Positions 5,585 to 47,845 of a DNA stretch of 52,293 bases are shown one piece after another. The position numbers and the translations under genes are program-made. Under the pieces are notes generated by a model. It worked only from the letters and a program-made list of their open reading frames with translations. It searched no databases and was not told where the DNA came from. Location of the stretch: positions 1-52,293 of the IMG/VR virus record IMGVR_UViG_3300028595_000017; one strand, written 5' to 3'. Position 1 is the stretch's first letter. Each line of letters opens with the position of its first letter. The stretch is from a virus.

Positions 5585-5585
5585 A

Positions 5586-5786: not shown

Positions 5787-5807
5787 TAAGGTTATTTTTT
5801 AACCTTA
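5787..5807 (+). repeat. Intergenic hairpin before the scaffold gene
   Basis: TAAGGTTA (5787-5794) and TAACCTTA (5800-5807) form a perfect 8-base-pair stem with a 5-base T loop. It is followed by GTTTAAAGGAGG, the scaffold ribosome site, not by a long T run, so it is a weak terminator at best. It belongs to the set of stem-loops found right after stop codons in this genome. Confidence 0.6.
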
Positions 5808-5828
5808 GTTTAAAGGAGGTCTTAACTT

Positions 5829-6548: not shown

Positions 6549-6559
6549 GGAGGTAACAA

Positions 6560-8113
6560 ATGAACCATTGGTCATTAATAGATACGTTTCATAAAGACGT
6601 AATCTTGACAACAAGTGGACAATTTCAAGAAGAAGGCTACATGCCTTCTGATTATTTAGAGGCTGTGTATTTACATAAACCTCAAAATCACATCATCACA
6701 GCGATTGTCGCTAGTTTGGGTGGATCAAAGTCTTTCGATAATTTAACTATTGAATGGTCTGAAGAATCTGAAAGACGCTATCATTGTCATGTAGATAAAA
6801 TGATTGTGCCAGATGTGCCAAGTGCTCAACCGTCTTCACCTGAGGGTGTATATGGAAACTTTTGGACTTATGATGTCAATGACTTAGGTAATGCTACTAC
6901 CACTTTAACAAGAAACGGTACTGTGATAGGCTTGACTGCCAACGACAATGTGTACTTAGATCATTATCGCCCTGGCATGACTGTTGCATTAATGTGCAGT
7001 AATAATATCGCAGAGATTGCCATAGGCCGTGTGCGCCAAATTTTACCAAAGGGATCATCAGCCGCTTTGCCAGACAAAACAGTTTTAGTTGTAATGCTGC
7101 CAGAGGGGATTTCTTTTGAATTTATCAAGCATATTTCAGAATTCACATTAGCCGGCGGTGAAGTTTCTGAATATTCAGATCGATTAACTGGTGCTTCAAG
7201 TCGTCCTCGTTTATTTCGAAATACGATTGGTATTTTACGTCAAGACAACCAGCAATCGCACACAGCATTAAAACTCAATCCTCGGTATGTTAGAAATGGG
7301 GACGATGCTTTACTGCAAGATGTGTCTACCAAATTAGCTGATATGGTTGAAAATTATTGGATTTTCTCAAAACATTATATTGGTGAAGATCCTTTAACCG
7401 GCAATCCAATTCGTAAGCCAGCTGGATTATTACAAGGCGTTTTTAATATGGATGGGCATTTTCCAACAGGTGGACATATCATAGACATGCGTGCTCATCT
7501 ACCCACGAATGGCACATTTGTTGATCATGGACTGGATGCTTTTGATAATATTGCAACAGAATTATTTGATCGTATTCCACAAAATGCTCATTTACTTTGT
7601 GGTCCTGGTGTAATAGCTGGTTTTTCAAAGTTAGCCAGAAAAACAGGTGATATGGAAGTTACAACTGATACAACAAAAATTGGTCTACGAATTTCCACTG
7701 TTAGAACATCGCAAGGAACTTTTGAAGCAGTTGCGCATCCTGAATTTGCTAAAACACGCGCTCTTAATCATGCCATGTTTGGTATTGATTTTACACAAAT
7801 GCAAATGTTGAATTATCGCGAAATGAGCTCGTTTATTACTGATGATTTAAAAGTAAGCGGTAAAGACGGTATTTGTGCTACAGCCATCACAGAAATGGGT
7901 TTTCAAATGCAAGGTATATCTTCTTCTGTAGTTTTGTTGAATGTTGGCCTTGATAAGAATCAAACAGTGATACAGTCTGTAAATCAAAATACTTTGTTAA
8001 CAGCGAATGAAGGCGAATTGGATGTTAGCCCAACTATTGTGGAAAATGTGTTTAATACCGCTTTAGAGGGTGTTCCAACGGTAAAAAGCGAGCCAAAAGA
8101 AGTTTTAACTTAA
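6560..8113 (+). CDS. Major capsid protein
   Basis: 517 aa. It follows the scaffold gene and is richer in GC and better codon-balanced than its neighbours, as expected for an abundant protein; AAGGAGG precedes the ATG. HK97-fold capsid proteins in podoviruses are often 320-420 aa, so this one is long, and residues 95-180 (a beta-rich stretch) may be an inserted domain. The family is inferred from position, size and abundance signals; I see no short motif that proves it. Confidence 0.85.
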   Translation: MNHWSLIDTFHKDVILTTSGQFQEEGYMPSDYLEAVYLHKPQNHIITAIVASLGGSKSFDNLTIEWSEESERRYHCHVDKMIVPDVPSAQPSSPEGVYGNFWTYDVNDLGNATTTLTRNGTVIGLTANDNVYLDHYRPGMTVALMCSNNIAEIAIGRVRQILPKGSSAALPDKTVLVVMLPEGISFEFIKHISEFTLAGGEVSEYSDRLTGASSRPRLFRNTIGILRQDNQQSHTALKLNPRYVRNGDDALLQDVSTKLADMVENYWIFSKHYIGEDPLTGNPIRKPAGLLQGVFNMDGHFPTGGHIIDMRAHLPTNGTFVDHGLDAFDNIATELFDRIPQNAHLLCGPGVIAGFSKLARKTGDMEVTTDTTKIGLRISTVRTSQGTFEAVAHPEFAKTRALNHAMFGIDFTQMQMLNYREMSSFITDDLKVSGKDGICATAITEMGFQMQGISSSVVLLNVGLDKNQTVIQSVNQNTLLTANEGELDVSPTIVENVFNTALEGVPTVKSEPKEVLT

Positions 8114-21339: not shown

Positions 21340-22497
21340 TTATAATTCTCCCATATATTTAGCAATTACTGTACCATTTGATTCTACCAATTTAACTTGG
21401 CCAGCTTTTTGTAATGAAATCAATGTGTCTTTAAAAAAAGCTTGTGTCATAGTATTAATGCAACTTGCACGCAATAGTCGTACATCAATATCACCTGCTG
21501 CTTTTATTCTACTAATTAAATCAACTCTTTCTGATAATTCATTCATGGTACTGGAAATATCACTGAACACTAAATTATAAGATTGTTCTAATCTATCCAT
21601 GCAATTTATTGCTCTAATTATCATATCTTTAGTGACTATGTTTGTTCCTTTCATACAAGCAAAAACTATGCATAATTTAAATATCATTAATTCTCTACGT
21701 TGCCATGTATAATCAAAACGCCGACCATAAGGACATACAATTGGTTTACTTAAATAATACTTTTCGTAATATTCATAAGCTGTTTTGTTAAATTTTATAG
21801 GGCCAGTCATACACATCATTTGTTCTAGGTCATACTTTAAATTAGATAAAATAGCTTTATCAACTTCTGGTCTTGCGACTTTTTTCGCAATAGGGCCAGC
21901 GCCAACTAAAATAAAACGAGAAATCATTCCAGATTCTTTTATTCCTATAGGCGAAGTTGCTAGAGTGCTGGGTTGTGTTGCTCCGATTAAAGATACCCAA
22001 ATATTTGATAATTGTGGCTCATCTCTGGATAAAACACCATAATCGAATATTTTCCTACAGTCAAAAAATTGAAGTAACCAAGATAATTTTCTATCATCAT
22101 CTTGAATAAAAGAAGTTAATTCTTGAAAAACTCCTGCTACACTGGTGTGTAAATAATCACCATTATTATATTCAAAAGTAGTTTCAGCATTTGACATTTG
22201 CCTATAAACATATTCAATAGAACCGGCGTCAGGTAAAAAAGTTATGTTTAAATTATCAAGTACATAATCACACATTAAATCAAGACAACAACCTTTTCTA
22301 GCAGCAGGCGGTCCTACTAAAGCTATAAAAAAGTTTGGGTATATTACAAGAGAGCCCAATTCTAGCCAAACTTTTCTTTGTAACACAGCTGATATTGAAA
22401 AAATTCCAGTCCATTCAAAATATAATTTACACGGTTCTTGAATTTTAAAACATTTAATATAATCATTTAAATAGTCTGTACATTTTCTTTTTGACAT
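21340..22497 (-). CDS. DUF3987-type replicative helicase/ATPase
   Basis: 385 aa. A phosphate-loop-like segment LVGPPAARKG (about residues 60-69) has the Pro-rich form seen in DUF3987/YfjI-type phage helicases instead of a textbook GxxxxGK[ST]. Further on come VAGVFQELTSF (Walker B-like), SLIGATQP (sensor-like) and SGMISRFILV (Arg finger-like). The ATG at 22497 follows GGGAG; a TTG further out is unlikely. It lies just after the DNA polymerase gene and overlaps its end by 31 bases. No separate primase gene is visible, so this protein may cover part of that job. Confidence 0.75.
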   Translation of the reverse strand: MSKRKCTDYLNDYIKCFKIQEPCKLYFEWTGIFSISAVLQRKVWLELGSLVIYPNFFIALVGPPAARKGCCLDLMCDYVLDNLNITFLPDAGSIEYVYRQMSNAETTFEYNNGDYLHTSVAGVFQELTSFIQDDDRKLSWLLQFFDCRKIFDYGVLSRDEPQLSNIWVSLIGATQPSTLATSPIGIKESGMISRFILVGAGPIAKKVARPEVDKAILSNLKYDLEQMMCMTGPIKFNKTAYEYYEKYYLSKPIVCPYGRRFDYTWQRRELMIFKLCIVFACMKGTNIVTKDMIIRAINCMDRLEQSYNLVFSDISSTMNELSERVDLISRIKAAGDIDVRLLRASCINTMTQAFFKDTLISLQKAGQVKLVESNGTVIAKYMGEL

Positions 22498-24977
22498 ACT
22501 AACTCCCAAGCTTGTTTTAAGTGTTCAGGATTTAACCCTTCGTTAAAATGGTCGTTAAATTCTATGCCATGTTTTTTAACAGTCAGTGTTTTGCTTAAAG
22601 AAACATTAGCGGGTATAACAAATGATCGTCCTTCTGGAGTTTGTAATGGTGTTTCCATTTGATCTGTAATTCGTTTAAGTTGATGACATAAAGATGTCCA
22701 TTCATCTATATCTTTAGGTATTTTAAATTGAAAAACAACTTCGTCATGTATTTGTAATTTTAATTGTAAAGCTTTTCGTGAATCATAATCATTATAATTA
22801 AATATAATAGCATCTCGATTTATTTTATCGCCTACTGTACTTTGTGGATTAAAAGCAAAACCATCACGAAAAGTTTTAGTCTCTAATTTTTTACGACAAT
22901 ACCAAGTTCGTCCTAGAAGATTGGTTAGTTTACGCCCATTAGTTAATTGATTAATAACACCTTTTTGATATACGTTAACTACTCCAGGATTGTGCCTAAA
23001 ATAAATTGTTTGTATTTGTTTTGCTGCGGTTTCTTTCATATCGTTTTCTAATGCAAAACCTTTGACAGACCAACCATAGTTAAAACCGTGATTCATTTGC
23101 TTTGCAACATCTCGCCATGATTTACCTACTATACTTAAAGGACACACATCTTTTTTTACATTAACAGTATTTACAATATTTGGAGCAATGTTATTAACTA
23201 AAATATAGGCAGATTGTGTGTGTACATCACCGCCAACTCGTTCAAATTCTGCTATCATCTCTTCACATTTACCTAAATAAGCGACAATACGATTTTCCGC
23301 TTGACTAAAATCTATAGAAATAAAACCATGATTAGGTGTATCAGGTATTAAAATTTCTCGTAAATTTTTAGGCCAATTTTGCATATTCATGCCTGTACCT
23401 AAAGGACTTGTTACAGATGAAAATCTTGCCCAAATAGTGCCTGCTGGACTCATTGTAAAAATAATTTTACCATTGGGGCTTACGATACTTTCTTTTAAAT
23501 AATTTGAATAAATTTTTCTGTGCTTTCGACAGTTTTGTATAAAGTCAATACCACGTGTACCGTTTCGACGCATTCTTTTCAAAGCTGTTTTATCAAACGA
23601 AAAACCTTTACCAGTTTTTCCTTTATATAGCTTTGTTTGTTTCAACGCATAAAATTCAATTAATTGTTTATTTGAATGTGGGTTTAATTCGATTCCAGCA
23701 AAATCATGCAATTTTTTTAAATAAATCTGTTCTTGTTCTTTATGATATTCAGCTAATTGGCGCATTCGTTTTATGTTACAGTTTAAGCCACTTCGTTGAG
23801 CACTTAATAAAGGTTTAATTAAAGCACATTGCGCTTCAAAAATAGGTTTGTTATCAAGCGCGTCTAAATCACTTAACATATTTTTCATCGCAAGTAAAGT
23901 AGCCATAGAATCCATAGCAGCATAGGTAAAAAAATTAGACCAATCTGAACCGGTATCAAAAAATTTTTTGCCTTCTGCTTTATAGTATTGAAAGGGTGTG
24001 TATAAACTAGTTATTATATCAAGACCGCGTTTAAAACCAGACCAATTTAATCTTTGTGCAATCATAGTATCCCAAAGAGGTCCTTGTGGAATAATACCGT
24101 AGCAATACCATAATACAAAATAATCATACCAACCACCTTGAGTAACTTTTAAAATACAGTTATCTTCTAAAATATGTTGGTATAATTCTAAAAGCATTGT
24201 TTCTGTAGTTTTTGTAAAAGATAATCCTTGTGCATCCATGAAATTAATACACATAGAGACATTGTTAACAGCCATACTGAAACAAGATATTGTTGTATCA
24301 GGCGTTGCATAGTGTATGGTTTCAATATCATGAGCAATTCTTTCGCCTTTTAATCCTTCACTTTTACAATATTTTAAAAAATCCATAGCTGATTTTTTAG
24401 ATGGTCTTATGATTAGTTCAACATCATTAGCAGCTTTTTGCAAAGCTTTAATAGCAATACCTCTTTTAAAATCTTTAAAAACTAAAAAGCGATTTTGCCA
24501 TTGATCTGAATATTGTTCTATATGTTTTGGGTGATAAGTAGGCATTACTGGAATATCGGTTCCTATTAAAGATAATGGTGAACCTCTATATTTTGTAATG
24601 CCTGTTAATTCTGTTAATGCATATAAAGCAACTTCACCGAGTGCAAAAATAACTTTAGGACGAAGCTTACTTAAACTATTGCGAAGTTGGTTTATATAGG
24701 CGACACCCTCTTCAGATAGGCGTGGTTTTTTATCTAAATTAATGTATTGTTTTAAAGGTTTGTCTGCATCCATTATAACATTAAGAAGAAGACAATCACT
24801 TCTAACAATTCCTAACTGTCCTAAAATATCCCATAATAATTTACTAGTATCGCCTAGAAACGGTTTTCTATGAATTAATTCATTCCGGCTTGGTTGATCT
24901 CCGATAATAATGTACAAACTACTGTAATTATCGTTAGCTGGTACAAAAGTTCTTGTTTTATTTATATTTTTAAACAT
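22467..24977 (-). CDS. Family A DNA polymerase with N-terminal UDG-like and 3'-5' exonuclease domains
   Basis: 836 aa. Residues 1-190 look like a uracil-DNA glycosylase superfamily domain (GDQPSRNEL...RKPFLGDTSKLLWDIL, RPKVIFALGEVALYAL and MPTYHPKHI). Next is a DEDD exonuclease (AHDIETIH near 213, GGWYDYFVLW, YAAMDS). The polymerase part has motif A SIDFSQAENR (near 555), motif B RDVAKQMNHGFNYG (near 620) and motif C IHDEV (near 741). UDG-PolA fusions are known from some phages. The UDG-like part may recognise uracil or be structural; activity cannot be judged by eye. It has AGAGG upstream. Confidence 0.93.
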   Translation of the reverse strand: MFKNINKTRTFVPANDNYSSLYIIIGDQPSRNELIHRKPFLGDTSKLLWDILGQLGIVRSDCLLLNVIMDADKPLKQYINLDKKPRLSEEGVAYINQLRNSLSKLRPKVIFALGEVALYALTELTGITKYRGSPLSLIGTDIPVMPTYHPKHIEQYSDQWQNRFLVFKDFKRGIAIKALQKAANDVELIIRPSKKSAMDFLKYCKSEGLKGERIAHDIETIHYATPDTTISCFSMAVNNVSMCINFMDAQGLSFTKTTETMLLELYQHILEDNCILKVTQGGWYDYFVLWYCYGIIPQGPLWDTMIAQRLNWSGFKRGLDIITSLYTPFQYYKAEGKKFFDTGSDWSNFFTYAAMDSMATLLAMKNMLSDLDALDNKPIFEAQCALIKPLLSAQRSGLNCNIKRMRQLAEYHKEQEQIYLKKLHDFAGIELNPHSNKQLIEFYALKQTKLYKGKTGKGFSFDKTALKRMRRNGTRGIDFIQNCRKHRKIYSNYLKESIVSPNGKIIFTMSPAGTIWARFSSVTSPLGTGMNMQNWPKNLREILIPDTPNHGFISIDFSQAENRIVAYLGKCEEMIAEFERVGGDVHTQSAYILVNNIAPNIVNTVNVKKDVCPLSIVGKSWRDVAKQMNHGFNYGWSVKGFALENDMKETAAKQIQTIYFRHNPGVVNVYQKGVINQLTNGRKLTNLLGRTWYCRKKLETKTFRDGFAFNPQSTVGDKINRDAIIFNYNDYDSRKALQLKLQIHDEVVFQFKIPKDIDEWTSLCHQLKRITDQMETPLQTPEGRSFVIPANVSLSKTLTVKKHGIEFNDHFNEGLNPEHLKQAWELVCQKENVQTI

Positions 24978-24993
24978 TTTTTAACCTCTATCG

Positions 24994-26457
24994 TTATTGA
25001 TTAACATTAGAGATTTCGGTTATTTGCGCATTAACTAATAATGGAAATTTATCTACATATGTATTCGATAAATCCCATCCAATAGCTGTACGAAAAGTTC
25101 TAAAAGCTGATAGTATAGTTTGACCAGAACCCCCAAAAGGTACACAAACATGCCCACCTGGTTTACAAAAAGTATCTATTACTTCAGCCATTAAAGCATG
25201 TGGTCGTTGTGCCCGATGAATACGTTGTGTTGAAGGCACTAAATTATACTCAAAAACATTAAAATGTCCGGTTTTATTCAATATTGCTTGTGAATTTTTG
25301 TTACCATAAATAAACATATCAATTCTTGCTGTTAATCTATGTTGCGGTTGGTTTGCAGCACCTGTTGGCTTTAACCAATAACCAGGCATTTCGTAAACAT
25401 TTAAACCATTATTTACGTATTTATAAGCATGTTGTTTTTGTGCAATCATTTTTTGTAAGTCATTTTTACGCAAACCTTTGAATATTTGTTTTGTAACTTC
25501 AGTCCAAGAAGGAGAATGCCAGCAAATAAACCAACCGGTCGGTTTTAAAACTCGTAACACTTGTTTATTTATTTCGTACAATGTATCTATATATAATTCT
25601 GGAGACATCTCTATATACTGATCACTTTGTTTTGTTTTTTGATTATTATCCAAATCTATTGCGTAAGGTGGGTCTATCTCAAAAAAATCTACAGATTCAT
25701 CATTAAGCTTTTCAAGCCCATCCAAACAATTACCTTTGTGAAAAGCTTTAAGAATGGTTTTTTTATAACTATTTAAAGAAGTTTGTTCAGCTTCCATTCT
25801 AGCTTTAGCATTACGTCCTTCTATAATTTTCCTAGCTTCAGCAGCTTTAGATTTTAAATCTTTTTGCGATTTGATATCTGAAGGTTTAAATCCCAACGAT
25901 ATCATAAGTTCATAATTACTGAGATCTTGTGAAATTTTTGGCCTAGACACATTCAACATTTTAGCTGTATCTGCCATAGTATGGCCTTTGGCACTAGATG
26001 TAACTTTTCTACCCTTCTTTTTAACCATATATCTATGCAAAAATTGTTCTTGTTCAATTAATTCACCATATTCCAATGGCTTTGTATGCGCATTTTCCCA
26101 ATTTTCATACATTGGAAATAACATGGATTCATAAGATCTGATTAAAAGAGATACTCTAACAGTTTTAAATTCATCATTAGCTTTTTGTAGAAGATTTAAA
26201 GCACTAAAACGTCTGCCTCCTGCAATAAGTCTGTATGTATATCCATCAGTTTGACATTGTTGCAAATCTGCTATATCATCTTCTTCATCTGCTGTTTTTA
26301 ATGCTTCTTCTATATTTTGCACTAAAATCGGATTAATTAAGCCACCTTCTAAAATGCTCTCAGCTAAATCTTCTATCCCAACATACACTTTTCGTGTACG
26401 TAATTTGCCAAAAGCAATTTGTTCAAACGAAACATTTATTGTCTTAAAAAATGTCAT
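24994..26457 (-). CDS. ParB-like domain fused to DNA methyltransferase
   Basis: 487 aa. The N-terminal 120 residues are ParB/Srx-like, with GLINPILV and the box AGGRRFSALNLL near 78. A helix-turn-helix (GHTMADTAKMLNVSRPKISQ) follows. The C-terminal half is an amino-methyltransferase: catalytic EIDPPYAIDL near 259 and SAM-binding VPFGGSGQTI near 440. DPPY before the FxGxG loop marks a beta-class N4/N6 enzyme. It likely marks phage DNA against host restriction at a site chosen partly by the ParB/HTH part. There is no cognate endonuclease nearby, so it is a solitary methyltransferase. AAAGGAG precedes the ATG. Confidence 0.9.
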   Translation of the reverse strand: MTFFKTINVSFEQIAFGKLRTRKVYVGIEDLAESILEGGLINPILVQNIEEALKTADEEDDIADLQQCQTDGYTYRLIAGGRRFSALNLLQKANDEFKTVRVSLLIRSYESMLFPMYENWENAHTKPLEYGELIEQEQFLHRYMVKKKGRKVTSSAKGHTMADTAKMLNVSRPKISQDLSNYELMISLGFKPSDIKSQKDLKSKAAEARKIIEGRNAKARMEAEQTSLNSYKKTILKAFHKGNCLDGLEKLNDESVDFFEIDPPYAIDLDNNQKTKQSDQYIEMSPELYIDTLYEINKQVLRVLKPTGWFICWHSPSWTEVTKQIFKGLRKNDLQKMIAQKQHAYKYVNNGLNVYEMPGYWLKPTGAANQPQHRLTARIDMFIYGNKNSQAILNKTGHFNVFEYNLVPSTQRIHRAQRPHALMAEVIDTFCKPGGHVCVPFGGSGQTILSAFRTFRTAIGWDLSNTYVDKFPLLVNAQITEISNVNQ

Positions 26458-29537: not shown

Positions 29538-30182
29538 TTATGCCTGCATCTTCCTGCGAATTAAATATGTTGAAGGAATTAGAATATTTCGATCCATCGC
29601 TTCCACAATATCTTTCAGCGCTAATACATCACCGTAAGCCTTATGAGCATCCGGAAAACCTTTATTCATCAAATAACGATAAGCTTCTGTTTGTTTTGGC
29701 CACTTATAACCGCTATACTTTTTTTTCTTATTTAAGTGAGGCATTTTCATAATATCTGTCAAAATTAACATTGGATCAAATACAGGTTTGTTTAACAATA
29801 AAGCTTGTAAAGCATTAAACATCTTTACTTCTGTTGCTTTATCGAATAAAAAAGGTAAATCAAATTTTTTGTTATAGATTACCAATACATCAGAACGTTC
29901 AATAGCAATTAAAAATCGCTCAAAATGCGCTCTATCCATTTCTATGTCATTTGGCAAGTCCTCAACACTGATTCTATGCACTCTTTCTGCACCCGCGCTG
30001 ATCGAACGTTGAAGATGCGAATAATTATGGCTTTCAAAATCAGTGAAAGCCCTTTGAGGTTTAAATAACCCCCAAGCATGCTGAACAATAAATTGTTTTA
30101 GTGTCTTTCTATTATCGCGTTGGCGAAAATTAGATGTTTCTGTATCTGTTACTAAATAATTAGTAATGTTTGTTGTCGGCAT
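29538..30182 (-). CDS. DnaQ-type (DEDDh) 3'-5' exonuclease
   Basis: 214 aa. VTDTETSNF gives D13 and E15, NKKFDLPFL gives the second Asp near 105, and HKAYGDVLALKD (near 178) gives the His and last Asp. All four metal-binding residues are present, so it should be active on single strands or RNA. It lies between the nuclease and ligase genes, with AAGGAG before the ATG. The polymerase already has its own exonuclease domain, so this one is probably for recombination or DNA recycling. Confidence 0.85.
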   Translation of the reverse strand: MPTTNITNYLVTDTETSNFRQRDNRKTLKQFIVQHAWGLFKPQRAFTDFESHNYSHLQRSISAGAERVHRISVEDLPNDIEMDRAHFERFLIAIERSDVLVIYNKKFDLPFLFDKATEVKMFNALQALLLNKPVFDPMLILTDIMKMPHLNKKKKYSGYKWPKQTEAYRYLMNKGFPDAHKAYGDVLALKDIVEAMDRNILIPSTYLIRRKMQA

Positions 30183-30204
30183 AAATTCTCCTTTTTTAAA
30201 TGTT

Positions 30205-30228
30205 ACGTTATTTTTTAACGTTAGTTGT
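30205..30228 (-). repeat. TAACGTTA-type hairpin at the end of the ligase gene
   Basis: ACGTTA and TAACGT flank a 5-base loop, overlapping the last codons and stop of the ligase gene (stop at 30208). It is one of several stem-loops with the same AACGTT core placed at gene ends. Confidence 0.55.
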
Positions 30229-31140
30229 AAAAAGTTCTAAAGCAGGAATTTCGACAGCAACAGATTCCATTGGTGCATGCCTTTTTGTTAATCGTTGATA
30301 TCGAATACCTAATTCAAAACCCACTAAAGTTTTATGCTTTTTCCAAATATATTCTAATTGTGCATGTGTAAATTGCGATGATCCAACTGTAAAAAATACA
30401 TCTTCATCTGTCTTGCAATAGAAAGACCCAGCTCTATTCAAAGCGACACCATTTTTATCTATAGCTTGATTTATTTTTACAATTAGACATTTCATAGTTT
30501 GGTGTGGTTTAAATTTTAAAGCAGTTGAAACACGTTTACCTCTTGTATAAATATTTGTGTGAGATCGAATGATTGAACCTTCATAACCTTCATCTAAAGC
30601 ATTCTTAGTAAAATCTAACACATCTTGATAGCTATGTATAAAAAAATCTTTTAAAATAAATATATTAGACGCTACTTGTCGAAAATAAGTATGGATAGCT
30701 ATATCTTCAACTATAGTATCCCTATATAAACGGCGCATACAATATTTATCTTTTTCAACAATATCTAAATCATCCTTTTTATAAAAGAAACAATCAAAAA
30801 TATAATAATTTAAATCTGATTCTTGCGGATGATAATTATTAACACGATTTAATGCACCATGAATATCTTGTAATTTCCAATTGTGGTTATAAATTTCACC
30901 GTCTAAACAAAAATTGTTTTTTAGTTGTTCTTTATATAATGAAAATATACCATCTAATTGTTTTAAAATTGTTGGCACACTATTGATAATATTATCTTGT
31001 GGAGAGAATAACATAGAACAGTCATTAGTAAAATAAGCTAAAGCTCTGCATCCATCTAATTTTATTTGAGCTGTTGGATGCACTAATTTTTGAAAAGCTT
31101 TTAAATTGAGATAATTAAATTTCATTGTACTAAATTTCAT
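30208..31140 (-). CDS. ATP-dependent DNA ligase
   Basis: 310 aa. It seals nicks with ATP. Nucleotidyl-transfer motif I is IKLDGCR with Lys27; motif III is CLDGEIY (near 80); motif IV is DEGYEGSIIR (near 185); motif V is ALKFKP (near 207). An OB-fold domain follows. Length matches small T7-type ligases. GGAG lies 5 bases before the ATG. Confidence 0.93.
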   Translation of the reverse strand: MKFSTMKFNYLNLKAFQKLVHPTAQIKLDGCRALAYFTNDCSMLFSPQDNIINSVPTILKQLDGIFSLYKEQLKNNFCLDGEIYNHNWKLQDIHGALNRVNNYHPQESDLNYYIFDCFFYKKDDLDIVEKDKYCMRRLYRDTIVEDIAIHTYFRQVASNIFILKDFFIHSYQDVLDFTKNALDEGYEGSIIRSHTNIYTRGKRVSTALKFKPHQTMKCLIVKINQAIDKNGVALNRAGSFYCKTDEDVFFTVGSSQFTHAQLEYIWKKHKTLVGFELGIRYQRLTKRHAPMESVAVEIPALELFTTNVKK

Positions 31141-31157
31141 TATAACTCCAAAATAAA

Positions 31158-31194
31158 AAAACCGGCATATAACTTTAAATCACATACCGGTTTT
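31158..31194 (-). terminator. Intrinsic terminator on the leftward transcript
   Basis: AAAACCGG and CCGGTTTT form an 8-base-pair stem with a longer loop, and on the leftward strand the stem ends in a run of T (CCGGTTTTTTTATT). It lies between the 147-aa gene and the ligase gene. It probably makes the two genes behind the 32.1-kb promoters far more abundant than the replication genes beyond. Confidence 0.8.
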
Positions 31195-31215
31195 AATCTA
31201 TAAATTAAATGACGT

Positions 31216-31659
31216 TTAGGCGCTGGTTACCTGTAAATTGTGCTTAGCCAGCAAGGCATTCAATGCATCCAAATCACCGGTAGCCAGATTTGCAAAACCT
31301 TTTTCTATCGAGGCTTTAGAGCCAATATTAAGACCTGGACGATAATCATCCAAAGCCGCAAGTTGCACAAGACCAGCTTGACCTTTTTCTAAACCTTTTC
31401 GAGCCATATTCTGAACGCTGACGGTTACTGCTCGTTTCAAAAGGGCTTTTGTTTCAGCTTCACCAAATTTAGCTACAAAATCGGCCACTGTTGGTTGCAT
31501 ATCTACATAATGTCGGCAACTTGTAGCATTTTCAGGCGATCCTGTAACAATTGTTATTGGATCAGCCCAATCAGGATTGAATGTTTGATCATAGACACCA
31601 GTCGTGCCTTCTTTAGGGTACTGAAGTTTTTTGTCTTCTGTTGACATGTTCTCGGACAT
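31216..31659 (-). CDS. Hypothetical protein, probably highly expressed
   Basis: 147 aa. Its DNA is clearly less AT-rich than its neighbours and has the codon balance otherwise seen in the capsid gene. It sits between two tandem promoters (with one gene between) and a terminator, and has a strong AAGGAG. The N-terminus is polar; residues 55-147 are Ala/Leu-rich helices. All this suggests an abundant early protein, perhaps DNA-binding or host-directed, but no family is recognised. Confidence 0.72.
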   Translation of the reverse strand: MSENMSTEDKKLQYPKEGTTGVYDQTFNPDWADPITIVTGSPENATSCRHYVDMQPTVADFVAKFGEAETKALLKRAVTVSVQNMARKGLEKGQAGLVQLAALDDYRPGLNIGSKASIEKGFANLATGDLDALNALLAKHNLQVTSA

Positions 31660-31681
31660 AGTAAAAAATCTCCTTTTAAAT

Positions 31682-32020
31682 TTATTCGCCTGCTAAAGGC
31701 GGTTTATTTTTAAGAACTAAACTTCCAATGTTTAGTTCAGCTAAATCTTCTTGTAAAGCAGTTTGAGTTTCTACCTTTGCAATTTTTTTAAGTTTAGGTA
31801 ACTTAAATCGCATTTTATTTGTTAAAAAAGATGTTGCTTCTTGTTCATCAGTAATAACAGCTTCTGGATCGAGATCCTTAATTGATTCAACCAACATTTG
31901 AATTGCAAGTCTTGCTGCATGCGCTGTTGTAGAAGGATAAATTTGGTTACGAATTAGATAATTTATAACAGTAGCAATATCAGCGTACTTGCAACTCAAA
32001 GTTGTTATTCGGTTGGTCAT
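31682..32020 (-). CDS. Hypothetical protein, first gene after the tandem promoters
   Basis: 112 aa, behind GAGGGAGAG. The N-terminal 45 residues (strand, helix ADIATVINYLIRNQIYP, helix TAHAARLAIQMLVESI) could be a ribbon-helix-helix or other small DNA-binding fold; the rest is charged. Directly next to the promoters, it could be an autoregulator. This is inference. Confidence 0.68.
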   Translation of the reverse strand: MTNRITTLSCKYADIATVINYLIRNQIYPSTTAHAARLAIQMLVESIKDLDPEAVITDEQEATSFLTNKMRFKLPKLKKIAKVETQTALQEDLAELNIGSLVLKNKPPLAGE

Positions 32021-32047
32021 AATTCTTTCTCTCCCTCTTAGAAATTC

Positions 32048-32083
32048 ATAAAATCTGGCCTCTCTGGGTTATTCAGATTTTAT
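32048..32083 (-). repeat. Hairpin in the 5' leader of the 32.0-kb gene
   Basis: ATAAAATCTG (32048-32057) and CAGATTTTAT (32074-32083) are perfect 10-base arms around a 16-base loop. It lies between the -10 box at 32104 and the ribosome site of the 112-aa gene, so it would form in the mRNA leader and may stabilise it. Confidence 0.6.
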
Positions 32084-32827: not shown

Positions 32828-33238
32828 TTAAACCTCCATTAAATCCTTTAATTGATTTATTAATTTATCCGGTAATTTATTGCACTTAGCAATAAAATCT
32901 CTCAAATCAAAATTTTTTTTATTTGTTGTTTTGTTGATAGAAGAAAAACCATTTATAGTGTATAAACCACTTTCGCTAAGATAATAATCAACACCATCAA
33001 AAGTAATAGAAAAACCAAAAGATAGATATTTTAATACTATCAAAGGTTTTTTTATCCATGTAGGCATATATATTTCTAATAATTCTGCTGTTACATTATT
33101 TATAGTAACGACAGAATTAAACATCTTAGCATTAATATATGCTTCAAAATCGTTTAGATTTTTACATTGATTTTCATGTGATACACCATAACTAGAACCA
33201 GTTTTTCGATTTGTTATTTTAGTGAGTATATGTTTCAT
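32828..33238 (-). CDS. Hypothetical protein with VLxY/GFS module
   Basis: 136 aa. Residues 55-135 contain MPTWIKKPLIVLKYLSFGFS, then DYYLSESGLYTI and FIAKCNKLPDKLINQLKDL. The same order and most of the same residues recur in the 100-aa protein at 34902 (IPKWLEKTVTVLKYTSLGFS, NYYIDKKGFYCL, FIDMCNLISDDLINQM), so the two are paralogues. The N-terminal 50 residues are unique. AAAGGA lies upstream. Function unknown. Confidence 0.75.
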   Translation of the reverse strand: MKHILTKITNRKTGSSYGVSHENQCKNLNDFEAYINAKMFNSVVTINNVTAELLEIYMPTWIKKPLIVLKYLSFGFSITFDGVDYYLSESGLYTINGFSSINKTTNKKNFDLRDFIAKCNKLPDKLINQLKDLMEV

Positions 33239-33278
33239 TTATTATTTTTCCTTTAATCTTTTGTTGTATATTATATCC

Positions 33279-33626
33279 TTATACACCATGCCAATCAATA
33301 TTGATATGTTCTTGTTTAAGATCATCCTCCTCAGACCAATCATCAGGTAAGTCACCGAGTGTTGTATCATCCTCGATGCTCTTACCTGATGGATCTTCTG
33401 AAGTCCTATAGATGGAGCAAGGATCTTCGAGTACTTCAAATAAATGCTCTTCAGGTAGAAGATAACCTTCTGACTTCAACTCCATCTGAATAATGTCCCA
33501 GGGTAAACCACGCCTAGCAAAAAGCGTCTGAACTGAAACACAATATCTTTCGTGTTGTAGTTTAAAATGCTTCCATTTGCTAGGCGGTTTGATAAGACAC
33601 TTACGTAGCCGAGTTCTCAAGTTCAT
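33279..33626 (-). CDS. Hypothetical protein with acidic C-terminus
   Basis: 115 aa. A basic N-terminal half (NLRTRLRKCLIKPPSKWKHF) joins an acidic C-terminal half rich in E, D, S and P. The ribosome site is weak (GAG). Another frame (33242-33439) is open here too, but this reading fills the space between neighbours exactly (one base after the previous stop). No family. Confidence 0.6.
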   Translation of the reverse strand: MNLRTRLRKCLIKPPSKWKHFKLQHERYCVSVQTLFARRGLPWDIIQMELKSEGYLLPEEHLFEVLEDPCSIYRTSEDPSGKSIEDDTTLGDLPDDWSEEDDLKQEHINIDWHGV

Positions 33627-35288: not shown

Positions 35289-35360
35289 TTAACCTCCTAG
35301 TACAACATGGATATAATCACCTGGTAAACTCTTTCTACTAAACTCATACCATACCTCCAT
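35289..35360 (-). CDS. Very short ORF, 23 aa
   Basis: Peptide starts MEVWYEFSRKSLPGDYIHVV. Its ribosome site is weak, and another 16-aa frame in the same place (ATG overlapping a TGA) has a better GGAGG. The stop lies one base before the ATG of the 27-aa ORF. Coding status is uncertain. Confidence 0.3.
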   Translation of the reverse strand: MEVWYEFSRKSLPGDYIHVVLGG

Positions 35361-35446
35361 TTCTTATAAGCGCAATCATATCGCTAATGAATGCGGTTTT
35401 AAGCGCAGTTTTTTCTGTTTCTGTTATATATAAACGATGAACACCT

Positions 35447-35908
35447 TCACCAATATAGCTTAACAGAGGAATTCATTATTTTACAGACATCAAGTGCTAA
35501 CTTAGTATACATATCCTTATACACTGGTGCTGAGTTAACAGAGAATGTCCAAAGCTTTACGATGTTTGGGTCACCTTCATGCAGACCTTGATTAATTTGT
35601 GGCTTTGTTTCATCAATGACCGCAACACACCCTTCTGCTACACGTACAGTATAGCGTAAATTATCTTGCTTAACTTTATTACGTAATACTTTTACTTCAA
35701 GATATGACTTTTCAACAATAGAGGCACAAACAGCGCACGGCAAATTATCACACCGACTTAGATGACAAGCAAAATTGTATTTAATATGAGCGTCATCTAT
35801 AGATTTTACTAATACGTGATTTTCCCATTCATCAAAATAAACAACACCTGTCTTCCAAGTATCGTCGTTAATTTGGACTTTTATACCATTTAAAGTTATA
35901 GTTTTCAT
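35447..35908 (-). CDS. Hypothetical protein
   Basis: 153 aa, beta-rich N-terminus (MKTITLNGIKVQIND) and a cysteine cluster (CHLSRCDNLPCAVC, residues 48-61) that could bind zinc. It overlaps the upstream gene by 4 bases (ATGA). After its TGA a different frame stays open for about 38 codons (to 35344) with protein-like content and no ATG, so the true C-terminus may be longer if an indel or frameshift exists. Confidence 0.65.
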   Translation of the reverse strand: MKTITLNGIKVQINDDTWKTGVVYFDEWENHVLVKSIDDAHIKYNFACHLSRCDNLPCAVCASIVEKSYLEVKVLRNKVKQDNLRYTVRVAEGCVAVIDETKPQINQGLHEGDPNIVKLWTFSVNSAPVYKDMYTKLALDVCKIMNSSVKLYW

Positions 35909-36402
35909 TGAATACTCCTAGCTATTGTTACATTTAAAATTGTAACAGTCTTAGCGAATTCATAAAGTACAGCCATGTTATAGTTAACATTATCGTATAA
36001 TATGGTTCCATCATTCATTATGAAATGAAAACCACGGCTATCCATGAAAATATCTTTACCATGAATTTTAATACTTTGACCGCTTTGCAATATTTCAATT
36101 AGCATTTTAAATCTACTCATTACATCTGCACTATAATCTTGATAACAAATAGAAGTTTTTGCTGCGATATTTTTTAAATGAGCTTTAAATTTCTTAATTG
36201 TTTTTTTACCAAACTGGTCACAAAAGAATTTTAATTCATTTAAAGATACATAGGATTTAACAAAATTACCATAATTATCTTTTTCATACAAACCATTTAT
36301 ATAAACAAAAAATCGTCCGCCTAATGAAACAGATCGACCTGTATCCATATAATGTAATACAGTTAACATATTATCCATATTATCTATATACTCGTTATTC
36401 AT
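35905..36402 (-). CDS. Hypothetical protein with two VLxY-type modules in tandem
   Basis: 165 aa from ATG 36402, which has AAGG 6 bases upstream. The protein is an internal duplication: MLTVLHYMDTGRSVSLGGRF...VYINGLYEKD (first half) and MLIEILQSGQSIKIHGKDIF...MDSRGFHFIM (second half), each followed by a helical tail. Both halves match the module of the 32828 and 34902 proteins. Function unknown. Confidence 0.72.
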   Translation of the reverse strand: MNNEYIDNMDNMLTVLHYMDTGRSVSLGGRFFVYINGLYEKDNYGNFVKSYVSLNELKFFCDQFGKKTIKKFKAHLKNIAAKTSICYQDYSADVMSRFKMLIEILQSGQSIKIHGKDIFMDSRGFHFIMNDGTILYDNVNYNMAVLYEFAKTVTILNVTIARSIQ

Positions 36403-36840: not shown

Positions 36841-37584
36841 TTATGCAATAGTTGCGTAATGCGCTATCGCATTTTGTTCTACCGCTTGATAAATTCTTGG
36901 GTGTTTTGCAAGCGATAATCTAAAAGATTCTCTAAAAGGGTGTGTTAATAAACCAGATACAAAAATACCATCCCCCCTTGTTGAATGGATATCTCCGCAA
37001 TCATTAATTGTTTTAATGACGTACTTTTTTTGTAAGCAAGAATCATAAGTTTTTTTTGCATGCTTACCTTTTTGCACACAATTAAAAAAATGCGTTCCGT
37101 ATCTAAATGATTCTTTGTTAGCAAGATTCTTTGGGATTAAGCTTTTTTTGGCAGCTAATAAATAATCACAATCACATATTAACTCAGTAAGATAGTATAA
37201 CCTATGCGCTCTGCCTAAAAGAAAATTCATGCCATTTAATTTAAATAAACCTTCCCAAATATCTCTTGCCACGCCTGCATGTCCATAAAATTCAATAAAA
37301 GAACTAATTTTAATATTAGCTTTATTGAATAAATAAAAATCAATAAGAAAACAGTTATTTATACCAAGGGATCTTATAATAGTATAGCGATGCGTTGATT
37401 GGAATGATTGTAAATGTTCCATATTCACAAGGAACAAACCGTCTTGAATACGTTGTACTAATTGTATTCCATAGCCAAATATTTTATTACCATCGGTATA
37501 AATATTTCCTGTTGAATTTTGTGTAACAAAACCATCCATTACTTTAAATGAATGAAGCATATTTTCCATGTTATCTCTAATCAT
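36841..37584 (-). CDS. Hypothetical protein, largest of the small-gene region
   Basis: 247 aa. The first 40 residues (MIRDNMENMLHSFKVMDGFV...NIYTDGNKIFGYG) recall the VLxY module. The rest is alpha/beta with scattered Cys and His. AGGAG precedes the ATG. I do not recognise the family. Confidence 0.7.
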   Translation of the reverse strand: MIRDNMENMLHSFKVMDGFVTQNSTGNIYTDGNKIFGYGIQLVQRIQDGLFLVNMEHLQSFQSTHRYTIIRSLGINNCFLIDFYLFNKANIKISSFIEFYGHAGVARDIWEGLFKLNGMNFLLGRAHRLYYLTELICDCDYLLAAKKSLIPKNLANKESFRYGTHFFNCVQKGKHAKKTYDSCLQKKYVIKTINDCGDIHSTRGDGIFVSGLLTHPFRESFRLSLAKHPRIYQAVEQNAIAHYATIA

Positions 37585-37669
37585 TTTAAATCTCCTATTC
37601 TGTATAATCTATAAATAAAAAATAATCCCTAAAAGAGGATATGATATAATTCCTGTAAATAAAGACATA

Positions 37670-38110
37670 TTAATAGGTATCTCCCTTTATTAAATATGCA
37701 GATAGTATATCTTTTAACATAGATGCTTTAAATAACATGTTTTGAAAATCTGATCGATGGCATCTTATTAATACTTCGTTTAAATCACTTGACCAATAGT
37801 AAAAGCCTAACCAAGGTTTGTCAAATAATTTAATGTCTTCTCGACCAGATATGTTTTTCGTTAAAACACAAGCGTATTTTTGTTTTGGACATAAAAACAA
37901 TTTAGATGAATTTTCAACTGTATGTATTTCCAAATAACCATATTTATTCATACAATCATTTAAAAAACAATTATTGTATAAATAAGGTATTCTTGGAGTA
38001 TGTCGAAAATCAACTAAAAATTGTTTAATAGATGAAATTTTACGCTTTACTTTTTTTGCAATAAGCGTGCCAAACCATACTTTTTGATTTTTTAATTGAT
38101 GGTTATCCAT
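37670..38110 (-). CDS. Hypothetical protein
   Basis: 146 aa with a basic front (KKVKRKISSIKQFLVDFRHTP), then a beta-rich centre (KYGYLEIHTV, KLFLCPKQKYACVL) and a helical end. GGAGG precedes the ATG. It may carry a degenerate form of the module in its middle. Unknown function. Confidence 0.68.
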   Translation of the reverse strand: MDNHQLKNQKVWFGTLIAKKVKRKISSIKQFLVDFRHTPRIPYLYNNCFLNDCMNKYGYLEIHTVENSSKLFLCPKQKYACVLTKNISGREDIKLFDKPWLGFYYWSSDLNEVLIRCHRSDFQNMLFKASMLKDILSAYLIKGDTY

Positions 38111-38113
38111 TTG

Positions 38114-38740
38114 TTATCCTCCACAATTAGTTGACGTACATGCTAATTTCTCTATTAATGCCTCAAGTTCTTTCCAGTTACTAACGTTAAAAGCACCTGG
38201 AACTGAGTTATTCCATAATTGTTTAAATAATATGCCGCCAGTAAAACCAGCATCACGCGCTGTTCTTATTGTTACTTCATTATCATCGACTAAATAATCA
38301 ATGTTATAAAGTCGCGCTATATCGTGTTTGTTTTTAATATAACTAAACAATATTTCAAAATCAACATTCAAGTGACGTTTTAGCCAATCTTCTGTAGCTT
38401 CTTTTGCATATACCGATCTAGCTGTTATGAATAAAAATTTTTCGCAATATGCGGAATATTTTTGGAAAAATTTTACAGCGCCAGGGATTGGTGGTGGTTC
38501 AGAAGAACTTTTTATATTCGTAATGATTTGATCTGTATAATTACGATATTCATCATAGGTAATGTCTAATATATCGTATAAGGCATATTTTGTAACATCT
38601 TTTTTTGAATAAGAACGTCCTTTTTCTTTTTCCACAAGATTTAAAAAAGCTTGAACAAAATCTATCACAACACCGTCTAAATCAAAGGCGATGGTTATGG
38701 CATGCCCGTTTTTTAATGTGATTTTAAAATCACTATTCAT
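38114..38740 (-). CDS. HAD-superfamily 5' nucleotidase-like hydrolase
   Basis: 208 aa. HAD motif I is AFDLDGVVIDF (D20 and D22), motif II is FITARS (Thr near 107), motif III Lys in NKHDIARL (near 137) and motif IV YLVDDN (near 150). All catalytic residues are there. The size and a small cap (residues 30-85) fit 5'(3')-deoxyribonucleotidases and related phage phosphatases, so a role in nucleotide pool control is likely. GGAG precedes the ATG; it overlaps the next gene by 4 bases. Confidence 0.85.
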   Translation of the reverse strand: MNSDFKITLKNGHAITIAFDLDGVVIDFVQAFLNLVEKEKGRSYSKKDVTKYALYDILDITYDEYRNYTDQIITNIKSSSEPPPIPGAVKFFQKYSAYCEKFLFITARSVYAKEATEDWLKRHLNVDFEILFSYIKNKHDIARLYNIDYLVDDNEVTIRTARDAGFTGGILFKQLWNNSVPGAFNVSNWKELEALIEKLACTSTNCGG

Positions 38741-39389: not shown

Positions 39390-39412
39390 TTTTACGCCTT
39401 TTTTGCCTTAAT

Positions 39413-39473
39413 AAACGATTAAAAAATCTTTTAAACATAAAATTATATTTAAGTCAAGATTTTTTAATCGTTT
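39413..39473. repeat. Perfect 18-base inverted repeat with 25-base centre
   Basis: AAACGATTAAAAAATCTT (39413-39430) and AAGATTTTTTAATCGTTT (39456-39473) are exact inverted repeats. The centre contains, leftward, a TTGACT. It lies between two convergent-spaced leftward genes. It could be a terminator of the rightward type (T run after the right arm), an operator or a large RNA hairpin. Confidence 0.75.
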
Positions 39474-39490
39474 TTTGTTTAAAAAAAATC

Positions 39491-44978: not shown

Positions 44979-45054
44979 AAAAAAATCTCCTCCTTATTTT
45001 TAATAAAAAATTTTAATCAATAAAAACAATACTTTAATCATAATACAAAACCAT

Positions 45055-45082
45055 ATCATAAAAAGCATTTAAAATCAATCAA
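45055..45082 (-). promoter_or_regulatory. Candidate promoter of the leftward operon
   Basis: Read leftward: TTGATT (45082-45077), 16-base spacer, TATGAT (45060-45055), about 80 bases before the 32-aa ORF. The -10 matches 5 of 6, the -35 only 4 of 6, and the region is very AT-rich, so chance matches are likely. Confidence 0.4.
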
Positions 45083-45228
45083 AATAATTAAAAAAATCAA
45101 AAAAATGAAAATATCAAAAATATCAATTTTTTTTCGAGCCATCCCTTTAATGTTAAAACTTTACACTTCTATTTACATGTTACTGATTAACGTTAGTTTT
45201 ATTATTGTGTGTGGTTCTGTTATTATAT

Positions 45229-45246
45229 AAAAAAAAAAAAAAAAAA
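45229..45246. repeat. 18-base A tract
   Basis: Eighteen consecutive A residues, followed 6 bases later by ten more. This could bend DNA or ease unwinding at an origin. Homopolymers this long are also prone to sequencing error in length. Confidence 0.9.
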
Positions 45247-45275
45247 TAAGACAAAAAAAAAATAGACGTAAAAAG

Positions 45276-45306
45276 ATGTCCAAATACATTTAAATATGTC
45301 CAAATA
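45276..45306 (+). repeat. ATGTCCAAATA direct repeat
   Basis: Two exact 11-base copies at 45276-45286 and 45296-45306, 20 bases apart (about two helical turns), which would put a bound protein pair on the same face of the DNA. Confidence 0.7.
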
Positions 45307-45707
45307 GGAATTTTAATAACTTTACACTTCTGCTTTACACTTTTGGAGGAGGGTTCTTAAAAGAATGATGTTTTGATTTTTTTTGATTTTTTGATTATTT
45401 AAGTTCTTTTTATTCCATTTAATTACTATCTCACAATACCATAATTTGCAAGTCCTCAAGAGCTTTCCTTCAAAATTTCAAAAAATCGCTTCTAAAAAGT
45501 AGTAAAAAGAAAAAATTCCCATTATAAGTAATATCACTAGTTATTTTACTACACTTCCTTAAAGTGGTATAAATCAGTAGTTACAGCAGGTAGTAATTTT
45601 TAAAAGTATAAATAACATATGTTTCGTAAGGTGCTTTCTCTCAGTGCTTATATTTATTACTTTCAAATGGTAGTATTTAAAGAAAGTTAGTAATAGAGCT
45701 ATTTTTG

Positions 45708-45743
45708 AAAAAGTATCATTTTGATGTAATTTTGATACTTTTT
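45708..45743. terminator. Bidirectional terminator-like hairpin
   Basis: AAAAAGTATCA (45708-45718) and TGATACTTTTT (45733-45743) form a perfect 11-base-pair stem with T runs at the outer end on both strands. It lies next to the direct iterons and may insulate the two divergent units. Confidence 0.68.
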
Positions 45744-45769
45744 TGGGATATTTTAGAAGAGGCCTGGTA

Positions 45770-45797
45770 AAGTGTAAAGAGTGTAAAAAGTGTAAAC
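45770..45797 (+). repeat. Iterons, direct group (3 x 9 bases AGTGTAAA)
   Basis: AGTGTAAAG, AGTGTAAAA and AGTGTAAAC begin at 45771, 45780 and 45789, a tandem array with exact 9-base period; a weaker ATGTAAAA follows at 45801. Tandem iterons are typical binding sites for replication initiators or regulators. Confidence 0.7.
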
Positions 45798-45883
45798 CCT
45801 ATGTAAAAACTATTTTTGAAATTATTTTTTTAAAAGCATTAAAAAAAATATTAAAAAAAAAGCATAAAAAAATATTTTTTTTC

Positions 45884-45912
45884 TTGACATATCATAAAAA
45901 GCAAGATATATT
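45884..45912 (+). promoter_or_regulatory. Strong sigma70-like rightward promoter
   Basis: TTGACA (45884-45889), 17-base spacer, TATATT (45907-45912). Start of transcription is expected near 45919, giving a 155-base leader before the 265-aa gene. Confidence 0.8.
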
Positions 45913-45918
45913 GCTATT

Positions 45919-46072
45919 ACAATTAGTCAGGTTCGGCGCTTACCGGAAAAAGCGCGCGCGGCAAGATTTTTATCTTGCATTTTGGCCTGTATTTTTCAGG
46001 TCACGATTGAGGTTGTATCAATTATATTATTTATTATTTATTAATCTAGCTTTAAGCTAAAAGGAGATTATC
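45919..46072 (+). ncRNA. Structured 5' leader (three hairpins), possible regulatory RNA
   Basis: After the promoter come three stems in a row: GCGCTT/AAGCGC (45936-45955), GCAAGAT/ATCTTGC (45961-45978) and GGCCTG/CAGGTC (45984-46002, with one G-U). The first part is far richer in GC than anything nearby. The ribosome site AAGGAG follows at about 46060. It may be a stabilising leader, an attenuator or the precursor of a small RNA. I cannot match a known riboswitch. Confidence 0.5.
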
Positions 46073-46870
46073 ATGAAAGAAAAAACTTATGAAATTATCA
46101 ATGGTGCTGTCGAAATCGACGGTATTTCCCACAAAATTGACGCCAAAAAATACTCTATCGAACAATCATTCATCTTTGATATGGATAAAAAGACCGTTTT
46201 AGCCGGTAAGATCCGAACCACGAATCATTATAAAAATGATAATAAAGATATCATTCGTTTTATTGAGTCTATTTTTGATTTTGCCGGTATGCCTTTAGAC
46301 GAATTTTTAAAGAATTTTTGGCATGGTTTTAAAGTCCGGCAAGGGAAAAATGTGCGTGAATCTCACAATTGTAATACGAATTATATAGCTGAAATATTTA
46401 ATTATGACAAGTGGTTAGGGACAAAACAAGCTGTCTCGGAAAAATTAACTGAGATAGAAGAGAAATTTAAGATCTTTTATTGTGAAAAAGCAGGTATCAC
46501 GCCGGAAGATCTAGACCAAGATGATATTTTTATCATTAAAAGTAACGATCCAATGCAGATCCTGGAAGCGGCCTTATCACGTGCTGCACGCTTTGCTAAT
46601 CTTGAATCACCTAATCTCACTGTTGATACAGCCCTTGATGATTCTATCAATGAAAATGAAGATATTAAAGATTCAGGAGATATTGATGATAATGACACTG
46701 ATGATATTGATATTGATGAAAATGACAAAGGTTTATATGGTGAAGATGAGTTACGAGACAAAACAGCTAAAACATTGAAAGAAATTGCAAAAAATCTGAA
46801 TATCCGATTTGCAGGGAAACCGAATAAAGATCAATTAATTGCAACGTTGACAGATAAACCGAGGATATAA
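46073..46870 (+). CDS. Early DNA-binding protein candidate with C-terminal HeH/SAP-like domain
   Basis: 265 aa. N-terminal alpha/beta part to about 190, an acidic linker (DDNDTDDIDIDENDK, about 208-222), and a C-terminal helix-extended loop-helix (DKTAKTLKEIAKNLNIRFAG then KDQLIATL, about 228-262) as in HeH/Rho-N/SAP modules that bind DNA or RNA. AAGGAG precedes the ATG. Alone behind a strong promoter and leader beside the iteron region, it is a good candidate for an early regulator or origin-binding protein, which is inference. Confidence 0.68.
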   Translation: MKEKTYEIINGAVEIDGISHKIDAKKYSIEQSFIFDMDKKTVLAGKIRTTNHYKNDNKDIIRFIESIFDFAGMPLDEFLKNFWHGFKVRQGKNVRESHNCNTNYIAEIFNYDKWLGTKQAVSEKLTEIEEKFKIFYCEKAGITPEDLDQDDIFIIKSNDPMQILEAALSRAARFANLESPNLTVDTALDDSINENEDIKDSGDIDDNDTDDIDIDENDKGLYGEDELRDKTAKTLKEIAKNLNIRFAGKPNKDQLIATLTDKPRI

Positions 46871-47204: not shown

Positions 47205-47223
47205 TCAATATATAAAATTAATA

Positions 47224-47261
47224 AAAGGTCAATCGATATAAAAGTCGGTTGGCCTTTTTTT
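47224..47261 (+). terminator. Strong intrinsic terminator of the early rightward unit
   Basis: AAAGGTCAATCGA (47224-47236) pairs over 13 positions (two G-U) with TCGGTTGGCCTTT (47245-47257), followed by more T. It ends the 46073-47204 transcript. Confidence 0.88.
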
Positions 47262-47458
47262 ATGCCATTTTTTTACTTCCTTTATTACTTCTTTAAATAC
47301 TTTTCTCCTTTACTTCTTTACTTTATTTCTATGAATTACTTCCTTAAATACTTCTTTACTTCTTTACTTTTTTTGAATTACTTCTTTACTTCTTTTATTA
47401 GGGCAATAATCATGCCAAATAATTGTATCATTTTGTTTTCCTTCTTGCTTTACTATCG

Positions 47459-47520
47459 AATACAAAATGTTACCATCGTAAACAAAATGCAACAATAAAA
47501 ATAATGAAACATTTTGTATT
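47459..47520. repeat. 13-base inverted repeat with ACAAAATG core
   Basis: AATACAAAATGTT (47459-47471) and AACATTTTGTATT (47508-47520) are exact inverted repeats; a third core copy at 47482-47489 is 20 bases from the first. Looks like a multi-site operator. Confidence 0.65.
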
Positions 47521-47673
47521 ATAGTAATACATAATAGTAATTATAAAAATACCAACAATACTTCTTTTCTTTTACTTCTATTCGTGCAAATCGTTGATGC
47601 ATATAGGTTTGCTTGCGTTAATTACTTCCGTTATTTACAAAAGTACTTTTATACTACTGCGACATTTTGGTAA

Positions 47674-47701
47674 TACTACTTGGGGGGTAGTAGAATTTTT
47701 T
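47674..47701 (+). terminator. Hairpin with T tail before small terminase
   Basis: TACTAC and GTAGTA arms around a G-rich loop (six Gs), then GAATTTTTTT. It has the form of a terminator, although no gene ends just before it; it may block read-through into the late genes. Confidence 0.5.
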
Positions 47702-47845
47702 TACTACTCACTTCCAACTCATTTCTAGTAAGTAAGATTTTTTTATATTTAAAAGAAGTAAAAATATGGCTTGCTTTATTTTCATTTAAATGTTATAGGT
47801 GAGGGAAGATTTGAATTAAAATTTTTATGGGAGATGGATTTTTTT

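Follow-up and report, generated by a model that had tools for sequence, protein, structure and literature searches.

A candidate iteron-type replication origin and early control element at the early/late gene boundary of an uncultivated phage and its relatives

Iteron-type origins of plasmids and phages combine short tandem direct repeats with an adjoining, very AT-rich and easily melted segment, and their initiator is encoded by the replicon itself, usually next to the array. DnaA boxes are frequent in the origins of plasmids, but phages often lack them, so they do not strictly define the class. To our knowledge, the origins of phages that encode polymerase A together with a DUF3987 primase/helicase and that have no recognisable initiator are undefined. 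Herpes simplex oriS has oppositely oriented binding boxes around an AT-rich spacer (PMC12543377), and in the omega/parS system of pSM19035 contiguous short non-palindromic repeats overlap promoters, with 7-bp units bound by the ribbon-helix-helix protein omega (PMC9499535). For Desulfofustis phage LS06-2018-MD01 (OP947158), the named member of the syntenic group of phages studied here, no origin is described (PMC10370329). The locus that we present shares with iteron-type origins the short tandem direct repeats, the adjoining AT-rich and easily melted DNA, and the single occurrence per genome, but differs from them in that its 9-bp units form two opposite sets and that it has no DnaA box and no adjoining gene for a known initiator.

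The window, i.e., the whole stretch of DNA analysed, is the complete IMG/VR virus record IMGVR_UViG_3300028595_000017 of 52,293 bases. Its ends share an overlap of about 140 bases (98.6% alike), so the record is circular or terminally redundant. Leftward early genes span 44978 to 20970 and encode an ATP-dependent ligase, a PD-(D/E)XK nuclease, a Sak4-like ATPase, a DUF3987 primase/helicase, a fusion of a ParB-like domain with an N6/N4 methyltransferase, and a fusion of a uracil-DNA-glycosylase domain with polymerase A. Rightward late genes begin at 46073, continue across the end of the record, and stop at 20973; they include a terS-like gene and genes for lysin, TerL, portal, and capsid. The iteron region sits at the point where these two transcription units diverge, in a gap bounded by the leftward genes (first start at 44978 or 44917) and the rightward gene start at 46073. 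Among the early genes, polymerase A (22467-24977) carries its uracil-DNA-glycosylase-superfamily domain as an N-terminal fusion, a plan that aligns across relatives, and the protein at 24994-26457 has its ParB-like domain N-terminal to the N6/N4 DNA methyltransferase, with relatives annotated as ParB or methylase. An imperfect 67-base palindrome at 39410-39476 (83%, self-BLAST) is perhaps a terminator.

A preliminary description of the divergent region had proposed an origin on the basis of three repeat units on one side and three tandem 9-base units on the other, with an 18-base A tract, direct repeats, and mirrored runs between divergent transcripts. All of these parts are present as described, and the region holds the following features:

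44994 to 45113, no strand: 120-bp duplex with the lowest stability in the genome (rank 1, nearest-neighbour stability scan), candidate left unwinding element
45159 to 45168, minus strand: iteron AAGTGTAAAG (CTTTACACTT as read on the plus strand), exact match
45229 to 45246, plus strand: run of 18 A
45276 to 45286 and 45296 to 45306, plus strand: ATGTCCAAATA repeated directly at an interval of 20 bp (repeat search)
45320 to 45329, minus strand: iteron AAGTGTAAAG (CTTTACACTT on the plus strand), exact match
45333 to 45342, minus strand: iteron AAGTGTAAAG (CTTTACACTT on the plus strand), exact match
45366 to 45412, plus strand: TTTTGATT runs (starting at 45371 and 45381), partly complementary to the AT-rich stretch 45070-45116
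45750 to 45778, minus strand: candidate leftward promoter TTTACA-17-TAAAAT with its -35 within the rightward iteron trio (consensus scan, 10/12)
45771 to 45797, plus strand: three tandem 9-bp iterons AGTGTAAAG/A/C, i.e., AGTGTAAA(G/A/C)
45800 to 45884, no strand: second unstable stretch, abutting the rightward iteron trio (stability scan)
45884 to 45912, plus strand: near-consensus rightward promoter TTGACA-17-TATATT (consensus scan, 11/12)

The record (52.3 kb) contains the core word AGTGTAAA 8 times, and 6 of these copies, at 45160-45796, fall within the divergent intergenic region, first three leftward ones (45159, 45320, and 45333) and then the three rightward ones in tandem (45771-45797), one every 9 bp. 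Direct repeats of one short word are thus gathered at a single locus, and none of 1000 dinucleotide-preserving shuffles of 44980-46072 gave 6 copies of any 8-mer with at least 2 G/C (mean 2.6, maximum 5). When the entire record was scanned for dense arrays of 9-mers, only two came up, the AGTGTAAA array and another one made of AAAGAAGTA at 47285-47760. The A tract, the TTTTGATT runs, and the long inverted arms are weaker evidence than the iterons because the region has only 24% G+C; homopolymer runs are present, and the match of 45366-45412 to 45070-45116 (77% over 47 nt, inverted-repeat search) is AT-rich and weak. The single-strand DNA fold of the region is not better than that of shuffles (z -0.28), the region holds no known RNA families, and an exact DnaA box, TTATNCACA, is absent from 44980-46072.

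Searches with the TerL, the DNA polymerase, or the 265-aa protein encoded right of the gap alone gave no relative above 36% identity. Alignment-based searches nonetheless found many syntenic uncultivated phages with 30-36% amino-acid identity to the window, among them the Desulfofustis phage. We took 18 long relative records whole and set them to one orientation, in which every one of them has a single boundary with early genes to its left and late genes to its right; in some relatives, what seemed to be leftward genes at the distal end resembled antisense ORFs. These 18 phages and the Desulfofustis phage mostly have tandem units of 7-13 bp near this early/late boundary, each with words of its own: CGACATTAA in G001 and G007, GTGGTTAG in G002 and G003, GACATATA in G004, TGTATT steps in G005, CATTGTATG in G008, GACAATAA in G015, TACAATGAT in G019, and ATATTATCC in OP947158. 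The Desulfofustis phage shares the gene plan of the window and has a T17 tract with its ATATTATCC repeats left of the boundary, but its proteins are only 30-34% identical and its repeat words are different. Scored genome-wide by near direct plus far inverted 8-mer pairs, a repeat locus no more than about 2.5 kb from the boundary ranks among the top three of its genome in 19 of the 20 genomes, the exception being G015, where the repeats are seen by eye and fall outside the top three. Pooled over 18 element regions, there are 542 near direct 8-mer pairs (40 in shuffles) and 292 far inverted ones (107 in shuffles). The elements are 450-1100 bp long, and the relatives' words are largely confined to them, so they do not form a dispersed regulon. 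The layout of the window, with the word on the minus strand at the left and on the plus strand at the right, is also seen in G001, G004, G007, G008, G011, and G015, and a stricter count gives 8 phages with opposite and 5 with same orientation. A general rule of inverted iteron sets is therefore not upheld, since the inversion is clear in only about half of the relatives.

Outside this group, an unrelated phage with 62% G+C (L223/L226) has the same AGTGTAAA triple adjoining a gene for an AAA_25 (RepA-type) helicase, which we count as weak support because tandem triples can arise by slippage too. In L223 (7600-7850) and L226, this triple and a single inverted copy lie at and just past the end of the helicase gene. 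Another record, L225, encodes at 4995-7466 a terminase-like protein with an apparent intein (a homing-endonuclease-like insert). The polymerase genes of G001 (35301-36212, 37128-38708) and G003 (30181-32049, 32953-33561) have about 1150 codons, with the homology split by an insert that is likely an intein as well. A search of genome contigs for the host gave a single distant match, to an Anaerolineales MAG, which is not informative.

Nearest-neighbour duplex stability, computed for each 120-bp window of the genome, has its minimum at 44994-45113, left of the iterons, and at 45800-45884 the DNA is so unstable that just 0.02-0.06% of the genome's 60-80-bp windows are less stable. The AT-rich candidate unwinding elements thus adjoin the iterons. 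Across the relatives and the window, the least stable 120-mer of the genome falls inside 9 of 15 elements, compared to a chance expectation of 0.16 with random placement and of 2.0 when only noncoding windows are considered (tail ~6e-6); G002/G003 and G006/G007 are mutually close pairs, so the genomes are not all independent. The 15 elements of this statistic were fixed by neighbouring genes (that of the window by its intergenic limits), and five more that were delimited by hand after the repeats had been seen are excluded from it. Noncoding DNA and strong promoters are AT-rich anyway. Several relatives have the unstable stretch between their two repeat sets, whereas those of the window flank the iterons instead when positions are compared. 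The likeness to herpes simplex oriS is accordingly one of plan only: iteron sets flank unstable DNA in about half of the relatives, but there is no relationship, no UL9-like helicase was recognised, and the least stable stretches of the window lie outside both sets.

Near-consensus promoters within the elements point leftward at 28 sites and rightward at 8. The leftward ones of the relatives often have TTGACA with a 17-bp spacer, and their position inside the element means that early transcription would cross all or part of it in these phages. The best leftward candidate of the window, at 45750-45778, is a consensus match, which is not in itself evidence of function. Downstream of the rightward promoter lies a leader (45912-46072) with a number of GC-rich stem-loops (z -2.15 compared with shuffles); it is possibly a regulatory or antitermination RNA and has no match in Rfam. 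GC skew had been proposed as a check on the origin: its minimum at about 45558 does fall in the element, but gene direction switches at the same place, and in many relatives the minimum is several kb away from the element. We therefore discarded GC skew as evidence for the direction of replication, as it is fully confounded with gene direction.

Two proteins of the window come into question as binders of the array:

31682 to 32020, minus strand: 112-aa member of a conserved family, alternative binder candidate (profile match and AlphaFold2)
46073 to 46870, plus strand: 265-aa protein with a weak C-terminal Rho_N-like domain, the binder candidate of the preliminary description

The preliminary description had found no known phage initiator, and we likewise recognised no known initiator family among the window's proteins. 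Its choice of the 265-aa protein as partner of the array is not supported: searches of IMG/VR and of 19 related genomes found no relative of this protein, and just its last 50 residues weakly resemble small Rho_N-type domains. We also considered it as a homologue of the conserved neighbour family of about 120 aa and rejected this idea, since it is the top match of the window at values that are not significant (E 0.37 to 9). The product of 31682-32020 is the better candidate because its family is present in all 20 genomes and its members are usually encoded beside the array in relatives, where they have 150-300 aa. A profile built without the sequences of the window and OP947158 detects it with E 6.5e-7 (HHalign probability 90%). 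AlphaFold2 predicts an extended (strand) start followed by two helices, with pLDDT >90 for residues 11-60, and from this model we propose that the protein may have a ribbon-helix-helix plan; searches of PDB, BFVD, and Pfam for a related fold or family gave nothing significant. Similar to pSM19035 omega/parS, the relatives thus encode a conserved small protein with a predicted strand-helix-helix start beside the array, but the repeats here have 9 instead of 7 bp, the fold has no significant database match, and no ParA partner was found. Adjacency of the conserved gene to the array is usual and not obligatory, because 2-13 kb separate the two in OP947158, G010, G018, and the window (13 kb). In most relatives the repeats overlap the candidate regulator's own promoter, unlike in the window with its gene at 31682-32020. 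Another protein of the window, of 147 aa (31216-31659), shows a weak relationship (E 0.016) to a family of small early proteins that nearly all relatives have, and its structure prediction has low confidence.

The best explanation of 44980-46072 is a single-copy control element that heads the leftward early (replication) operon. We slightly favour the more specific reading that it is an iteron-type replication origin combined with an early control region and early promoter. We infer that a phage protein would line up along the 9-bp iterons and strain the adjoining AT-rich stretches 44994-45113 and 45800-45884 until they open, and the opened strands could then admit the phage primase/helicase and polymerase A; leftward early transcription through the element may help. 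The candidate origin of the preliminary description is now better supported than by the sequence alone because tandem elements recur at the same place in nearly all relatives, the element coincides with the least stable DNA of the genome, and the repeats are confined to one locus, but GC skew is confounded with gene direction and an operator array predicts most of the same features. Counting for an origin are the one locus per genome, its length of 450-1100 bp, the least stable DNA, the location where the replication operon begins, and the L223/L226 triple. Counting against it are the lack of an initiator of a known family and of an exact DnaA box, the inversion in only about half of the relatives, the distance of 13 kb to the conserved gene in the window, and the flanking position of the window's unstable stretches.

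A serious rival, which we consider possible though doubtful, is that the iterons form an operator array only, at which a phage protein (possibly of the ribbon-helix-helix-like family) represses or times the early leftward promoter while the origin lies elsewhere. In relatives, a leftward promoter overlaps the array or lies a short way ahead of it, the conserved small-protein gene comes after the array, the leftward promoter candidate of the window has its -35 within iterons, and omega-type ribbon-helix-helix regulators of pSM19035 bind promoter-overlapping arrays of 7-bp repeats (PMC9499535). However, a promoter-operator would require far less than the 450-1100 bp of the element, most phages have their genome's least stable DNA inside it, and the array keeps its place at the early/late boundary even where 2-13 kb separate it from the conserved gene (the window, OP947158, G010, and G018).

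The second dense array of the window, which the preliminary description does not mention in its finding, offers another place for the origin:

47273 to 47760, minus strand: second array, 8 copies of AAAGAAGTA (one inverted), noncoding, upstream of the terS-like gene

It lies in the noncoding, AT-rich stretch 47205-47770, with AAAGAAGTA mostly at 47273-47395 and GTAGTA motifs after. That replication starts from this array, with the AGTGTAAA sites accessory or regulatory to it, seems improbable to us, even though it is denser than the AGTGTAAA array and has the top repeat score of the genome, both regions are enriched in GTAGTA (each with 4 of the genome's 22 copies), and the Desulfofustis phage likewise has repeats directly before terS. 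Its place directly upstream of the terS-like gene suits a packaging or late-control site, which seems the likeliest role, relatives usually have few repeats in the gap to the right of their early genes, and the least stable DNA is at the first region.

Even less credit is due to the idea that the iterons serve in partition, as a centromere-like site, or in packaging. Short tandem repeats with small binding proteins are typical of such sites (PMC9499535), but no ParA/ParM-like gene was recognised among the scanned proteins, and the ParB-like domain, encoded at a distance of about 20 kb, is part of a methyltransferase fusion. A phage in which no lysogeny genes are recognised has no need of partition, and a separate array lies close to the TerS-like gene. 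That the repeats reflect chance or slippage in AT-rich noncoding DNA, as 24% G+C and homopolymer runs might suggest, is the least credible reading and already disfavoured, given that no shuffle of the same composition reached the observed count and that repeats with unrelated words recur at the same place in relatives.

An origin combined with early control is thus the reading that we carry forward, and it yields a precise candidate element, with its anatomy over about 20 genomes, plus a candidate binding protein. We know of no ribbon-helix-helix-type protein that initiates theta replication, and it would be a long shot, if not a negligible one, that a large group of uncultivated phages replicates from a fast-evolving iteron origin with a small initiator of this type. 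Both the element and its candidate binder are testable with plasmids and purified protein, and position, tandem repeats, and melting stability taken jointly provide a route to finding origins when their words are not conserved.
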